The notes beneath the pieces are model-generated. The model did no database searches and was not told the DNA's origin. It saw only the letters and a list, made by a program, of their open reading frames with translations. A stretch of 64,000 nucleotides of DNA. Origin: Limnohabitans sp. INBF002. Its GTDB lineage: Bacteria; Pseudomonadota; Gammaproteobacteria; Burkholderiales; Burkholderiaceae_C. How positions within the stretch are numbered: the first letter of the stretch is position 1; every line of letters starts with the position of its first letter. Location of the stretch: positions 1 to 64,000 of the forward strand of contig NZ_AP027055.1 in assembly GCF_027924905.1 (NCBI RefSeq). The letters are read 5' to 3'. The position numbers and the translations under genes were made by a program. Below, piece by piece: positions 47,049 to 55,061 of this stretch.

Positions 47049-47573
47049 TCAATAGACTTTGAGTTCTCGCAAGTAACGCAGACGCTCTAACGTGGGACTG
47101 CGCGACAACTCGCGCACCAGCTCATAGCGTGTGTCGGCCATGTCGGCGGGTGGGTTGGGAATGGGCGTCACGCGCACCAACAAGGTGTAGCGCACGCCCG
47201 GCTTGAAGGTGAAGCCTTCAATGCGGTTGTAAAACTTAGACCACGTTGGCGCATCGCCCTCTTGCACTTGCAAACAGCGCATGGGCGCGGCCCCCATGCA
47301 CGCCACATCTTCGGCGGCCACGGTGAGCGTGATTTCTTTGGACTGCGCGGTGGGCGGGGTGGCCGGACACGCACCGTTAGACACCCAAGTTCCCCCTTGG
47401 CTCAGCATCACGCAACGGGTGGGGAACGTTTTCGTTTCCTGCCCCAATTGCCCGCAAACAGGCGCGTACTCGCGGGTGCAGATTTGGGGCGGTGTATGGG
47501 TTTGGTCTTGGCCTTGGGCCTGTGCTTGCGTCGAGATGACGAGAAGCGATGCGAGCAATAAGCGTGTGAACAT
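47049..47573 (-). CDS. Exported Kazal-like / DUF4377 protein
   Basis: A 174-residue exported protein with a signal peptide (residues 1-20, TQAQA before QG). A Kazal-type inhibitor-like module covers about 33-70 (CTREYAPVCGQ, then FPTRCVM and SNGAC). A DUF4377-like domain covers about 85-155 (EDVACMGAAPMRCLQVQEG, then YNRIEGFTFKPGVRYTLLV). Proteins of this type may inhibit proteases or bind small ligands in the envelope; the role is unproven. It is on the opposite strand to both metH parts. Confidence 0.75.
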   Translation of the reverse strand: MFTRLLLASLLVISTQAQAQGQDQTHTPPQICTREYAPVCGQLGQETKTFPTRCVMLSQGGTWVSNGACPATPPTAQSKEITLTVAAEDVACMGAAPMRCLQVQEGDAPTWSKFYNRIEGFTFKPGVRYTLLVRVTPIPNPPADMADTRYELVRELSRSPTLERLRYLRELKVY

Positions 47574-47830: not shown

Positions 47831-47855
47831 ACCTGTTTTGTTAGCCCCAGGTGAG
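47828..47855 (+). promoter_or_regulatory. Ribosome-binding-site sequestering hairpin of the SAH riboswitch
   Basis: CTCACCTG (47828-47835) is perfectly complementary to CAGGTGAG (47848-47855), which contains the Shine-Dalgarno AGGTGA, 8 bases before ATG 47863. The first three bases also belong to riboswitch P1, so SAH-stabilised P1 competes with this hairpin and should free the ribosome binding site. Confidence 0.75.
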
Positions 47856-47862
47856 TACCCCC

Positions 47863-50610
<2,748 letters not shown>

Positions 50611-50626: not shown

Positions 50627-50652
50627 AAAGCCCGCTGAATACGGGCTTTTTT
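50627..50652 (+). terminator. Rho-independent terminator after metH part 2
   Basis: AAAGCCCG (50627-50634) pairs with CGGGCTTT (50642-50649), followed by further T residues. It lies 16 bases after the metH stop and touches the stop codon of the convergent MFS gene. Confidence 0.88.
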
Positions 50653-51850
50653 ACTTGTCAAAGGCGATGGTTTTTTGCGCGGACCACAAAGCCGCCACGC
50701 CCACCACGCTGGCAACCAACATCAACCACAGCCCCGCCGTGTAGCCCGTCTCGGCAGACCACAGCAGCCCCATGAGCCACGGCGCTGCGGCGCGCGCCAG
50801 TGCCATGGGCAATCCCAGCAAACCGTTCAAACTGCCCATGTGTTCGCGGCTCACGTATTGCGCCATCACCGTGCCTTTGACGATGGTGAGCATGCCGTTG
50901 CCCAAACCGTAGAACACCACAAACACCGCGCCCCACATGCCGTGGCCAGCGCTGATGAGCAGCATCAAAAACCCGAGAGGAATCAGCACCGTCACCCAGC
51001 GGTTGGCGGCGTGCACATTCACGCGGTGCTCGGTCAGGTACAAACCCAAGCGGCCTATCACCTGCAACACGCCAATGCTGGCGGGTACGGCAATGGCCCA
51101 TGACGCATCCATGCCCGCTTCGCGCAACAGGCTCACCATGTGTGCGGGCAGCGCAGACGTCACGCCCATGAGCAACACCACAAACACCGCCAATTGCCAA
51201 AACGTGGGCTGGCGCAAGTAGCCGGCGAGTGTGTCGCTATCCGTGTGCGCACTGGCAAGCACAGCACGCTGCGGCGCATTGCGCAGCAGCATCCAGTGAA
51301 CGGGCACACACACCAGCACGTGTATGGCGCCCAGCACACACAGCGCATCGCGCCAGCCGAAGGCGTCGATCAACCACGCCACCAACGGCATGAACACCGT
51401 GCTGGCCAAACCACCCAAAAATGTGAGCGTGATGATGGCGCGTCTGAAATGGTTAGGAAAGCGCCGCGTCAACACCGCAAAAGCCGGTGGGTACAAGGTG
51501 CCCGCCAAGCCCACGCCCAGCAACGTCCACACCGCATAAAACTCGGTGGGTGTGTGAATGCGGCTGTGCAGAAAAAAAGCCAACCCCACCAGCAGCGAGC
51601 CGCCTGTCATCACCGCGCGTTCGTGACCGCGGTCAATCCAACGACCCACGGGGAACGCCAGCACGCCCTCGGCCAACAGCATCAAACTAAAGCCCAGCGA
51701 CGACTCGGCGCGGCTCATGCCCAAGGCTTGTTCCAACGGCACCATGAACAAGGCGAAACCGTAAAACACACTGCCCCAAGCGATGAGTTGCAGCGCGGAC
51801 AGCGCCCAAACGAAGCGGGCATCGTGACGGGAAAAATGGGAACGAGGCAT
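50651..51850 (-). CDS. Major facilitator superfamily transporter
   Basis: A 399-residue inner-membrane transporter with 12 predicted hydrophobic segments. The loop 2-3 motif region GRWIDRGHERAVMTGG fits MFS; the first segments include LSALQLIAWGSVFYGFALFM. The substrate is not evident; oxalate/formate- or monocarboxylate-type MFS proteins have a similar layout. It is convergent with metH part 2 and divergent from the DUF692-family gene, with 176 bases between them in which no further gene is seen. Confidence 0.85.
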   Translation of the reverse strand: MPRSHFSRHDARFVWALSALQLIAWGSVFYGFALFMVPLEQALGMSRAESSLGFSLMLLAEGVLAFPVGRWIDRGHERAVMTGGSLLVGLAFFLHSRIHTPTEFYAVWTLLGVGLAGTLYPPAFAVLTRRFPNHFRRAIITLTFLGGLASTVFMPLVAWLIDAFGWRDALCVLGAIHVLVCVPVHWMLLRNAPQRAVLASAHTDSDTLAGYLRQPTFWQLAVFVVLLMGVTSALPAHMVSLLREAGMDASWAIAVPASIGVLQVIGRLGLYLTEHRVNVHAANRWVTVLIPLGFLMLLISAGHGMWGAVFVVFYGLGNGMLTIVKGTVMAQYVSREHMGSLNGLLGLPMALARAAAPWLMGLLWSAETGYTAGLWLMLVASVVGVAALWSAQKTIAFDK

Positions 51851-52026
51851 GAGCGCTGATCATACGAAGCCTGAAACATCCAATCTGACGCTTGTGTGAT
51901 TTGTGAGAGTTTGGGGCCGAAGTTAAAAAGAAGTTAATTTGCAAATTCGTTTCGTCATGTTCCGCCAATCGGTGTCGAAGTAGTCGCCTGAGGCCAAGTG
52001 TTGGCCCATGGATAGGACGGTACTTT

Positions 52027-52752
52027 ATGAAACATCACATCTTGCACGGGGCAGGCTTGGCCTTGCGCCCCGCGCTGCTGGCGCCGCTGAAAAAATGCGC
52101 ACCAGACGCGTTGCAGTTTTTAGAACTCACACCGCCCGACTGGGTGGGGGTGGGCGGTCGCGTTGGCCAAGATTTGCAACAGCTGACCCAACGCTACCCC
52201 AGTGTGTGTTTGAGCCAAAGCCTGTCCTTGGGTGGCCCGAGCGCATTGGACCCAGACGTGCTGCGCGACTTGCGTGTCTTCATGGCCACACACAACGTCC
52301 AAGTGTTTTCAGAAGCCCTCGCGTGGAGCGCTGACGATGCCCCCTTGTTCATCAACCTGCCGATTCCCAGCACGCAAGCGGCGGTGGCTTGGACGGTGGC
52401 GCGCATTGCCCAAGTGCAAGAGGCCTTGGGTTTGCGCATCGGTATTCGCAACGTGGCGCATCACATGAAGCCACTGCAAGTGGAGATGAACGAGGCGCAA
52501 TTCATCAGCGCCGTGGTGCGTGCGTCGGGCTGCAGCTTGCATTTGGATTTACATGCGTTGGCCGCCAACGCCTTGCGGTTCAGTTTTGACGCCCATGCGT
52601 TCTTAAAAGAACTGCCATTGGCAAGCGTGGACTATGTGCGTGTCGGCAGCGAGTCTCCGTTGTTGGCGGATGTGCTTGCGCACACACACCGCCGCGTGGC
52701 CCGCTGCGTTGACGATGTGAAGCAGCTGGATTTGGAGGCCGTGGCATGTTGA
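52027..52752 (+). CDS. DUF692/MNIO-family (HvfB-like) protein lacking most metal ligands
   Basis: A 241-residue protein with the HvfB/BufB scaffold: GAGLALRPALL (8-18), FLELTPPDWVGVGGRVG (31-47), SLSLGG (65-70) and LPIPSTQAAV (111-120). Active family members are multinuclear iron oxidases that modify Cys-rich peptides. Here the usual ligand positions differ: CHG becomes CLS (61-63), SEH becomes SEA (95-97), EN becomes RN (141-142), DVNN becomes DLHA (174-177), NHG becomes RFS (184-186) and IHxAGH becomes VRVGSE. The C-terminal ligand region is missing. It is probably a pseudoenzyme. It overlaps the DUF2063 partner gene by 7 bases. Confidence 0.75.
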   Translation: MKHHILHGAGLALRPALLAPLKKCAPDALQFLELTPPDWVGVGGRVGQDLQQLTQRYPSVCLSQSLSLGGPSALDPDVLRDLRVFMATHNVQVFSEALAWSADDAPLFINLPIPSTQAAVAWTVARIAQVQEALGLRIGIRNVAHHMKPLQVEMNEAQFISAVVRASGCSLHLDLHALAANALRFSFDAHAFLKELPLASVDYVRVGSESPLLADVLAHTHRRVARCVDDVKQLDLEAVAC

Positions 52753-53483
52753 ACGATTTCCGCCAATGCCAATTTGCACTGGCCCGCCACTTGCGCGACC
52801 CGGTGTGCGTGCCTGCTCCTGAGGGAGTAGCTGCTGCGGATGTCACAGCATGCACGCAAGCGATGGTGACGCATTTGTGCGAGGTGCTTGACCCAGCGTT
52901 TCCGGTGACGCGCGCTTTGTTGGGTGAGCGGGTGTGGGCACACGCCGTGCGCGCATTCCTCAAAAATGCCCCCAGCCATGCGCCTTGGCCCAACGCCGTG
53001 CAACGTGCCTTTGTGGACCATGTGTGTGAAAGCCCAGAGATGCAAAGCCTGCAAGCTTGGCTGCACGACCTGGCCCACTTTGATTGGTTGCAAAGTGCCG
53101 TGATGGCGGCGCCCGTTGATTGGCCTGCGTTTGACGCACAGGGCGATGTGATGCAGCACCCCGTGGTGCTCAACCCCACCCATGTCGAGGCTGCGTACGC
53201 CTGGCCTGTGCGTGGCATAGACACCAAACACAAACCCGAGGGCATGGAAAGCACCCATGTGTCGATGTTGCGCGATACGAATGAGGCCTTGCATGTGTTG
53301 TCGAGCAGCGTGTTTCGTGGGCAGCTGTTGGACCTTCTGCGCGAAGGACAAACGGGCGAACAAGCGCTGAGGGTGTTGGCCCAATGGCTGTCGCACCCCG
53401 AGCCCGCCGTTTTTGTGCGTGAAGGGGCGCACGTCATGGCGCAGTTGCAACGCGAGGGCGTGGTGCTGGGCACCCGCGTGTGA
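52746..53483 (+). CDS. DUF2063 (HvfC/BufC-like) partner protein
   Basis: A 245-residue cytoplasmic protein starting MLNDFRQCQFALARHLRDP, the DUF2063 N-terminal pattern, with FPVTRALLGERVWAHAVRAF following. These proteins are the usual partners of DUF692 oxidases and are thought to recognise the precursor peptide. The second half (about 140-245) is Ala/Leu-rich, with a helix that could bind a partner. The start overlaps the DUF692 gene by 7 bases, so the pair is translationally coupled. No DUF2282/HvfA-like or other Cys-rich precursor gene was found beside it. Confidence 0.75.
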   Translation: MLNDFRQCQFALARHLRDPVCVPAPEGVAAADVTACTQAMVTHLCEVLDPAFPVTRALLGERVWAHAVRAFLKNAPSHAPWPNAVQRAFVDHVCESPEMQSLQAWLHDLAHFDWLQSAVMAAPVDWPAFDAQGDVMQHPVVLNPTHVEAAYAWPVRGIDTKHKPEGMESTHVSMLRDTNEALHVLSSSVFRGQLLDLLREGQTGEQALRVLAQWLSHPEPAVFVREGAHVMAQLQREGVVLGTRV

Positions 53484-53489
53484 TGCCTG

Positions 53490-55061
53490 TCAGTGGTTGA
53501 CCAACACGCGCCGGTATTGCAGTGCTTCGGCCACATGCGCCACTTGCACGGATGTGCTGTCGGCCAAGTCGGCAATCGTGCGCGCCACGCGCAGTGCACG
53601 GTGTGTGCTGCGGCTAGACCAGCCAAGCTTGCTGGCAGCGTTTTGTAAAAACGTGGCCGCTGCTGCATCGAGGTGCATGTGCGTTTCCAAGGCTTGGCCT
53701 TGCAAACCGTGGTTGGGGGCGCCTTGTCGCACCAGTGCTTTGGCGTGCGCGACCAAACAACGCGCACGAACGGTGGCTGTGGATTCACCCGTCCCGCTTT
53801 GCATCAACACCTCGGTGGCCAACGTGGGCACTTCCACCTGCAAGTCGATGCGGTCTAGCAATGGGCCGCTGAGCTTGCCTTGGTAACGCGCCACTTGGTC
53901 GGGCGTGCATCGGCAAGCCTTGAGGGGCGAGCCCAAGTAGCCGCAAGGGCAGGGGTTCATGGCCGAGATGAGTTGAAAACGCGCCGGAAATTTGGCCTGT
54001 GTGGCCGCGCGTGAAATGGTGATGTGGCCGTTCTCCAGCGGTTCACGCAACGCTTCGAGTGCGCTGCGTTTGACTTCGGCCAACTCATCCAGAAACAACA
54101 CGCCGTTGTGTGCCAAAGAAATTTCCCCCGGTCTAGGCGGTGTGCCGCCACCCACCAAGGCCACCGAGGTGGCCGTGTGGTGCGGGCTGCGCGTAGGGCG
54201 CTGCATCCACTGGTTCAACTCAAAACGACCGGCTAGGCTGGCAATCGCAGCGCTTTCCAAGGCCTCGTCCAACGTCATGTCGGGCAGCAAGGCCGCAAAG
54301 CGTTGCGCCAGCATGGACTTGCCTGTGCCGGGCGGTCCTACTAATAGAAGAGAGTGCCCACCCGCTGCTGCAATCTCTAGGGCGCGTCGCGGGCCTGCTT
54401 GGCCCTTCACGTCGGCAAGGTCCGGGTGGTGAGCGGCGGCGGGTGCGCTGAAGGTGGGCGTCTCAATGCGCGACCATCCTTCGGTCGTGTGTACCGGGTG
54501 CGTCGTGGCCTCTTCGCGTTGCGCGACCAAGCCTTTCACCTCGGGTTTGGCAAAGTGCGCCACCACATCGCTCAAATGTTGGGCGCGGTACACCTCGGCG
54601 GTGGGCACGAGTGCGGCCTCTTCTGCGCTGCCGGGCGGCAACACCAACCGCGTGCGCACCCCCGCACTGCGCAGGGCCAGCCCCATGGCGAGTGCGCCGC
54701 GCACGGGACGCAGCTCGCCCGACAAAGACAACTCGCCCGCAAACTCATGCAAAGCCAATGCGGCCTCGTCGAGCTGACCATTCGCCGCCAAGATGCCCAA
54801 AGCAATCGGCAAGTCAAAACGGCCAGAGTCTTTGGGCAAGTCGGCGGGCGCGAGGTTCACCGTGATGCGTTTGTTCGTTGGGAAATCCAAGCCTGCGTTT
54901 TGAATGGCGCAGCGCACGCGTTCGCGCGCTTCTTTAACTTCGGTATCCGCCAGTCCCACCAAGGTGAAGCTGGGCAGGCCATTGGCCAAATGCACCTCAA
55001 CGGTCACGGCCGGTGCTTGCAAACCCAAGAGTGCGCGGCTGTGAATTAACGCGAGCGTCAT
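53490..55061 (-). CDS. comM: ComM/YifB-family Mg-chelatase-like AAA+ ATPase
   Basis: A 523-residue hexameric helicase-like ATPase that promotes branch migration during natural transformation. It has an N-terminal Lon-like domain (start LALIHSRALLGLQAPAV), then Walker A LLVGPPGTGKSMLAQ near 234 and Walker B GVLFLDELAEVKRSAL. The zinc-finger-like CPCGYLG/CRCTP follows, and the C-terminus (WSSRSTHRALRVARTIADL) is typical. It ends 7 bases from the DUF2063 gene, convergent to it. Presence suggests competence potential but other com genes are not in the window. Confidence 0.95.
   Translation of the reverse strand: MTLALIHSRALLGLQAPAVTVEVHLANGLPSFTLVGLADTEVKEARERVRCAIQNAGLDFPTNKRITVNLAPADLPKDSGRFDLPIALGILAANGQLDEAALALHEFAGELSLSGELRPVRGALAMGLALRSAGVRTRLVLPPGSAEEAALVPTAEVYRAQHLSDVVAHFAKPEVKGLVAQREEATTHPVHTTEGWSRIETPTFSAPAAAHHPDLADVKGQAGPRRALEIAAAGGHSLLLVGPPGTGKSMLAQRFAALLPDMTLDEALESAAIASLAGRFELNQWMQRPTRSPHHTATSVALVGGGTPPRPGEISLAHNGVLFLDELAEVKRSALEALREPLENGHITISRAATQAKFPARFQLISAMNPCPCGYLGSPLKACRCTPDQVARYQGKLSGPLLDRIDLQVEVPTLATEVLMQSGTGESTATVRARCLVAHAKALVRQGAPNHGLQGQALETHMHLDAAAATFLQNAASKLGWSSRSTHRALRVARTIADLADSTSVQVAHVAEALQYRRVLVNH

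Follow-up and report, generated by a model that had tools for sequence, protein, structure and literature searches.

HvfB belongs to the iron enzymes acting on copper-binding peptides; it forms 5-thiooxazoles on the peptide HvfA and has HvfC as its RRE-type partner. An MNIO gene together with a partner gene is usually read as a peptide-modifying cluster, and the bufferin maturases BufB/BufC likewise combine an MNIO with a DUF2063-RRE partner. A landscape study of the family covers partners, two-MNIO clusters and cluster types, and states that Buf1 clusters can include sigma/NrsF genes (PMC12452194). In two further reports, alanine at N175, D242 or H244 abolishes the activity of H. influenzae HvfB (PMC13419390), and the D249A exchange in FonB abolishes activity and leaves the peptide unmodified (PMC13097082). 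Here we show that a branch of the family in some freshwater Limnohabitans bacteria has lost the iron site, while the fold and the HvfC-type partner have been kept under purifying selection.

The MNIO scaffold and the HvfC-type partner are retained

The window analysed here is a 64-kb stretch of Limnohabitans DNA that contains an overlapping gene pair, termed pseudo-HvfB and HvfC2 (Table 1). In the profile search the pseudo-HvfB ORF scored 154.5 bits against PF05114 (MbnB_TglH_ChrH, equal to MNIO/DUF692; cut-off 25), and the structure model with fold matching gave a (β/α)8 barrel like that of solved MNIOs, so that the protein belongs to the family by both sequence profile and fold. The original prediction of a kept MNIO scaffold, an intact frame and coupling to the partner gene was thus borne out; the frame is open and the two genes share 7 bp (52746-52752). 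The best NCBIfam model was the HvfB equivalog NF003818, with 182.6 bits, which lies below its cut-off of 360 and places the protein outside that equivalog. Five pseudo-HvfBs tested with this model scored 174-209 bits, against 393.9 for an intact paralogue. From BufB/BufC the pair differs in that the BufB model gave only 122 bits for a cut-off of 310 and in that no DUF2282 precursor was found in the window genome.

HvfC2 scored 147 bits with the HvfC equivalog NF050145 (cut-off 142) and is therefore an HvfC by this measure, with 48.3 bits for PF09836 and 48.5 for PF22106. All three partners tested against NCBIfam passed the same cut-off (147, 169 and 153 bits). HvfC2 is also altered in motifs conserved by the other HvfCs shown. 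The window genome is a single contig of 2.59 Mb, in which pseudo-HvfB is the sole MNIO detected and HvfC2 the sole DUF2063 protein found.

Table 1. Features of the pseudo-HvfB locus; the gene names metH and comM are those we presume, metH from its sequence.
Feature	Position	Strand	Evidence
pseudo-HvfB, 241 aa, ORF	52027..52752	+	PF05114, ligand table, structure model and fold match
HvfC2, DUF2063 domain and NGO1945_C (RRE-type) domain	52746..53483	+	NF050145, PF09836, PF22106, partner clade
MFS transporter, neighbour, divergent from the pair	50651..51850	-	PF07690
metH, left border of the variable locus	47851..50610	+	synteny in relatives
comM / Mg-chelatase-like gene, right border of the variable locus	53490..55061	-	synteny
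Upstream block, putative promoter, ATTTGCAAATTCGTTT...TCATGTTC...CGAA in the window	51937..51979	+	upstream alignment and exact-motif scan

Pseudo-HvfBs form one clade in Limnohabitans

PF05114 matches were present in 15 of 84 Limnohabitans genomes, and 11 of these carried the ligand-poor form. These 11 fell into group A (the window genome G000, Limnohabitans sp. Jir61 as G080, and G300, G323, G324, G356 and G371), group B (Limnohabitans sp. B9-3 as G184, and G354) and group C (G329 and G347); the proteins of B and C have 277 and 276 aa, compared with 241 in the window. In a tree of 62 rows, chosen by us from 80 distinct frames, all 11 formed one clade (100/100) nested in Burkholderiales HvfB, with a stem of 1.62 and an ambiguous sister. 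An HvfC-type partner followed pseudo-HvfB in every orthologue; the two genes share 7 bp in A and B and lie 12 bp apart in C. The 11 partners were also a single clade (100/100) with the order ((A,B),C), mirroring pseudo-HvfB, in a tree of 35 rows selected by us out of 46. Both trees carry long-branch warnings, which include B in the MNIO tree and C in the partner tree, and the joins are to be read with caution.

Outside Limnohabitans, the branch was absent from the 55 MNIOs of other genera that were read (27 from the family and 28 from the order), these being the best rows of searches that gave matches in 183 of 299 family genomes and in 182 of 399 order genomes. A pattern scan with the pseudo-HvfB alignment over one-genome-per-species contigs returned nine loci; eight belonged to the Limnohabitans branch, and the ninth was a Melainabacteria MNIO with 13/13 active-site positions.

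Two frames outside the pseudo pair were seen to depart from the usual form. The canonical HvfC frame of G080 (L032:9852-10523) ends early, giving 223 aa against 247 aa in G300 and G323. A 648-aa MNIO frame of G049 (L035:7318-9264) extends into an HvfC-like segment scoring 93 bits with HvfC queries, and from its sequence it is possibly a natural HvfB-HvfC fusion.

Pseudo-HvfB lacks nearly all iron ligands

The ligand positions were read from an alignment with the intact HvfB of the relative G323 and with the H. somni MNIO structure 3BWW, and 80 distinct MNIO frames (11 pseudo-HvfBs and 69 others) were scored at 13 active-site positions. The window protein and its 10 orthologues kept only 2-4 of the 13. 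Among the 69 other MNIOs, 63 kept all 13, five kept 11-12, and one at a contig end kept nine of nine readable. It had been proposed that nearly all metal ligands were gone, and this was confirmed, all the residues named being found where they had been placed; the 10 orthologues showed the same kind of loss, so that degradation is not confined to the window copy, and none of the 11 copies has the His/Glu/Asp/Asn set of the iron-ligand enzymes. Ligands present but shifted in position were looked for with structure models and were not supported.

Going from G323 HvfB to the window protein, the exchanges are H61 to L62, H96 to A97, E140 to R141, N175 to H176, N176 to A177, N183 to R184, H204 to R205 and H208 to E209, and D173 is retained as D174. 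The original list of six lost ligand positions held in part. L62, A97, R141, A177 and R205 replace residues kept by every complete non-pseudo MNIO frame read, and the other members are weaker: where the window protein has H176, two intact MNIOs have Ser and TglH has His, where it has E209, five intact MNIOs have Phe, and at F185 the intact Limnohabitans HvfBs also have Phe. Similarly, the C-terminal ligand region had been considered absent, and the protein indeed has neither the D-T-H hairpin nor the last helix, but it still has the eighth barrel strand (225-228). The E-R-D motif reads D229-D230-V231, and the second Arg of the N-terminal pair is P15 by our mapping to FonB Arg16. We equate HvfB N175 with the second Asn of L-D-V-N-N, on the ground that this Asn is retained in TglH and MbnB, and FonB Asp249 with the D of E-R-D; on this mapping the residues essential in HvfB and FonB would be replaced by A177 and V231 or missing with the hairpin.

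Relative to HvfB (the oxazolin/captophorin MNIO, NF003818; close relative PDB 3BWW), pseudo-HvfB therefore lacks the iron ligands and the catalytic base. TglH/TglI and MbnB/MbnC keep Glu, Asp, Asn, His and D-x-H, whereas pseudo-HvfB has only the Asp (D174), the stretches compared for TglH and MbnB excluding the first two His positions. In an automated alignment of a set of nine ligand positions, the window protein was scored as keeping two. One of the two, a Thr-His, is put at a different site by the models and by the longer orthologues, which effectively leaves D174 as the sole ligand. This set was based partly on conservation, with only N175, D242, H244 and Asp249 coming from papers and the remaining positions partly presumed by us. 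The window protein kept 37 of 70 other family-invariant positions. By a rank test the ligand-site loss exceeded general divergence across the 11 orthologues (p=0.02). For the window protein alone the excess was not significant (p=0.15), and the claim of a ligand-specific loss in this single protein was dropped.

The losses were unequal among the groups. H61, H96, E140, N176, H204 and the Asp and His of D-T-H are gone or replaced in the nine A and B proteins; group C has the first-ligand His (H61) and has lost or replaced the rest of these. Ligand losses seem to have accumulated in steps, because group C retains that His and the proteins of B and C are longer. An active MNIO with an unusual ligand set might be considered, given D174 and some acidic residues remaining near the former site, but we regard it as very improbable, with seven ligands gone or replaced in 9/11 proteins, group C retaining only H61 of these, and a single alanine at N175, D242 or H244 sufficing to inactivate HvfB (PMC13419390).

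The pseudo-HvfB gene is under purifying selection

The dN/dS ratios (Nei-Gojobori) of pseudo-HvfB were 0.031-0.164 in all 21 group-A pairs, 0.198 in the B pair and 0.070 in the C pair. For comparison, the partner gave 0.038-0.219 in group A, the flanking comM 0.041-0.132 and intact HvfB 0.049-0.085. Many dS values were above 1 and saturated; the seven pairs with dS below 1 (six A, one B) gave ratios of 0.09-0.20. No stop codons were reported in the orthologue frames, 11/11 being open. Pseudo-HvfB is thus under purifying selection.

The original prediction had judged decay unlikely and had proposed a comparison of dN/dS across orthologues, which yielded 0.03-0.20 among the Limnohabitans copies and agreed with that judgement. 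A decaying remnant of a lost oxazolin cassette could be suspected from branch lengths, since at the protein level pseudo-HvfB evolves faster than intact HvfB and has a long stem, and from the clean absence of the accessory pair in one close relative (see below). However, the ratio did not exceed 0.20 in any of the 23 orthologue pairs compared (21 A, one B and one C), every frame is open, several ligand-site replacements are themselves conserved and the two genes overlap or adjoin in 11/11 genomes; dN/dS disfavours decay, which we consider most unlikely.

As to the conserved replacements, H96 to A, E140 to R, N176 to A and H204 to R are fixed in all nine proteins of groups A and B, and the original residues are fixed in 33/33 intact HvfBs compared. 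In these two groups nine positions, these four among them, are fixed 9/9 where at least 31 of 33 intact HvfBs carry another residue. Arg is found at R141 and R205, both former iron-site positions, in 9/11 orthologues, and group C has S and M/L there. E96, N142, H145 and D174 are conserved in all 11 pseudo copies, the H145 position being variable in intact HvfBs.

Such residues could point to a new enzyme, in which a metal-free or single-metal site (candidates R141, R205, D174, H145, E96 and D229) would carry out different chemistry. Strong purifying selection, the His at H145 in all copies and the invariance of D174, N142 and E96 are consistent with it, and the fold matches to the model include related TIM-barrel epimerases and isomerases, which show that the fold supports other chemistries. 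We nevertheless hold it to be unlikely: group C does not conserve R141 and R205, the pair in the window has no pathway genes attached to it, and near H145 the model is weak, with pLDDT < 50 at residues 146-148.

Locus, cassette and promoter

In the window, the interval between metH and comM holds the MFS gene and the pseudo pair only, and no HvfA, sigma, NrsF or DoxX gene was seen there. Upstream of metH lies a small protein with a DUF4377 match and a weak Kazal-like match (47049-47573). In G080, G300, G323 and G324 the same interval carries NrsF, an ECF sigma factor, an EGKCG-type HvfA, intact HvfB, HvfC and DoxX, and then the pseudo pair, with the MFS gene separating cassette and pair in G300 and G324. 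The sigma and DoxX genes of G323 were checked with Pfam, and those of the other loci were assigned by similarity. The loci of groups B and C have a sigma gene transcribed divergently from the pair, which NrsF follows in G184, G329 and G347. The G354 contig stops after this sigma gene, and fragments of NrsF are located on a separate contig. No precursor gene was present between the sigma gene and the pair in these B and C loci.

HvfA-like genes were found (search at E 0.01) in four of the 84 genomes of the genus, which are the four cassette genomes, and no match was obtained in the window genome at this threshold. With no EGKCG-type precursor beside hvfBC, the window genome falls outside the oxazolin/captophorin cluster type. 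A hidden peptide substrate in the window genome was also considered and rejected on the negative HvfA-like and DUF2282 searches, the reach of which does not extend to diverged or other Cys-rich peptides. Pseudo-HvfB was the sole MNIO detected in five of the 11 genomes (G000, G184, G354, G356 and G371, the last three being assemblies 80-84% complete), and at least two complete genomes, G000 and G184, therefore do without the canonical cassette.

NrsF was found in 16/84 Limnohabitans genomes and not in the window genome. The NrsF proteins beside the pseudo pair are diverged, with 108 bits in G184, 70 in G329 and 64 + 34 (two pieces) in G347 (loci L072:2047-3332, L073:8888-10179 and L033:6429-7684), and those beside intact Limnohabitans MNIOs score 181-200 bits in G080, G300, G323, G324, G329 and G347. 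The diverged copies are possibly a shadow sigma/anti-sigma system. Strong NrsF matches also occurred in G355, G335 and G348, genomes without an MNIO match, and the NrsF anti-sigma family therefore probably has other regulons.

The upstream block of the pair was partly conserved in the seven group-A orthologues, the CGAA box being kept and the GTAAC box not, with a different box in the upstream position. An exact scan of 12 stretches was carried out for GTAAC-N17-CGAA, which we take to be a SigF-type motif as in Caulobacter SigF. In the four cassette loci two divergent copies of the motif lie between sigF and hvfA. A single copy precedes the pseudo pair in 4/4 loci of groups B and C, and G087 has one on the sigma side. 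The motif was absent from the whole window and from the fetched stretches of G356 and G371, and the group-A pair lacks the exact motif even where SigF is present.

These arrangements bear on a role as regulator or decoy, in which pseudo-HvfB/HvfC2 would compete with or assist HvfB/HvfC for the HvfA peptide. A complete hvfABCX/SigF/NrsF cassette adjoins the pair in four of 11 genomes, and in the partner the RRE-type domain remains recognisable as a member of its family. On the other side, pseudo-HvfB is the only MNIO detected in nearly half of its genomes, HvfA-like precursors were found in the cassette genomes only, the end branch of the window protein (0.14) is no longer than those of the cassette-bearing G080 (0.14) and G323 (0.15), and the group-A pair has no exact SigF-type motif; such a role appears quite unlikely to us.

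The pair is accessory and probably of vertical descent

The comM of G299 is 98% identical to that of the window, the highest value among the 49 genomes matched, not counting the window's own. In this genome the MFS gene leads to comM with about 45 bp between, and the pair is cleanly absent; the MFS gene is also present without the pair in G334, where the order is metH-MFS-comM. In G361, G320, G350, G260, G302 and G369 metH adjoins comM. The eight genomes chosen by us for this site, all without an MNIO match, lacked the pair between metH and comM in 8/8 cases. The pair is accessory and missing from most of the genus, and from this and from G299 its function is dispensable in many settings. In each of the 15 genome pairs with both values computed, the dS of the pair reached 0.7 times the comM value or more, and vertical descent with repeated loss therefore suits the pair better than recent spread.

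A different pattern was observed for the intact gene in the canonical cassettes L032, L060, L061 and L062. The dS of intact hvfB between species was 0.17-0.44, compared with at least 0.67 for the pseudo pair and comM within group A; the canonical cassette may have been exchanged between species, or codon bias may be strong.

Discussion

The reading we favour, and consider probable, is that pseudo-HvfB and HvfC2 are a pseudoenzyme pair, which has lost the thiooxazole chemistry and is kept for metal-free binding. An ancestral hvfBC pair in Limnohabitans would have lost the diiron site and the catalytic base of HvfB, with the barrel, the gene coupling and the partner being retained thereafter. 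The two proteins would still form a heterodimer, iron-free and without oxidation, which may bind a peptide or a small anionic ligand in the former iron pocket with R141 and R205. The pair may also belong to, or descend from, a SigF-controlled response to metal or oxidative stress. The loss of ligands and two negative searches for a peptide precursor in the window genome suggest that pseudo-HvfB probably has a new job. The original proposal of a pseudoenzyme repurposed for binding gains support from ligand loss within one clade, from purifying selection and from the kept partner, and the binding itself is what we infer.

Several points count against the pseudoenzyme pair, namely the motif changes in HvfC2, the lack of R141 and R205 in group C, the window copy without a SigF-type motif, the dispensability of the pair in much of the genus, the non-significant excess of ligand loss in the window protein alone and the long-branch warnings of both trees. 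In addition, E96, H145 and D174, present in 11/11 copies, could in principle hold one metal, which counts against a metal-free reading. More tentatively, the pair could be an MNIO-partner heterodimer taken out of RiPP biosynthesis, with the iron site rebuilt into an arginine-bearing metal-free pocket. It would then act in binding or signalling, as a module that belongs to a SigF-type stress regulon or stems from one.

The branch had been suggested to be undescribed. A literature search over titles and abstract openings, with supplements and subscription journals outside its scope, found no iron-less MNIO, and the words inactive, degenerate and Limnohabitans are not used in the landscape text (PMC12452194). 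So far as this limited search can tell, no iron-less MNIO branch showing evidence of selection has been reported before. We regard the branch as a variant within a known family rather than a novel type of system.

The existence of a conserved branch that has no iron ligands, and for which no precursor was detected, shows that inferring a peptide-modifying cluster from an MNIO gene and its partner can fail. It also offers a natural comparison for telling the role of the HvfC partner in binding from that of the iron site in oxidation, since four relatives carry both versions next to each other in one genome, one apparently active and the other apparently inactive.
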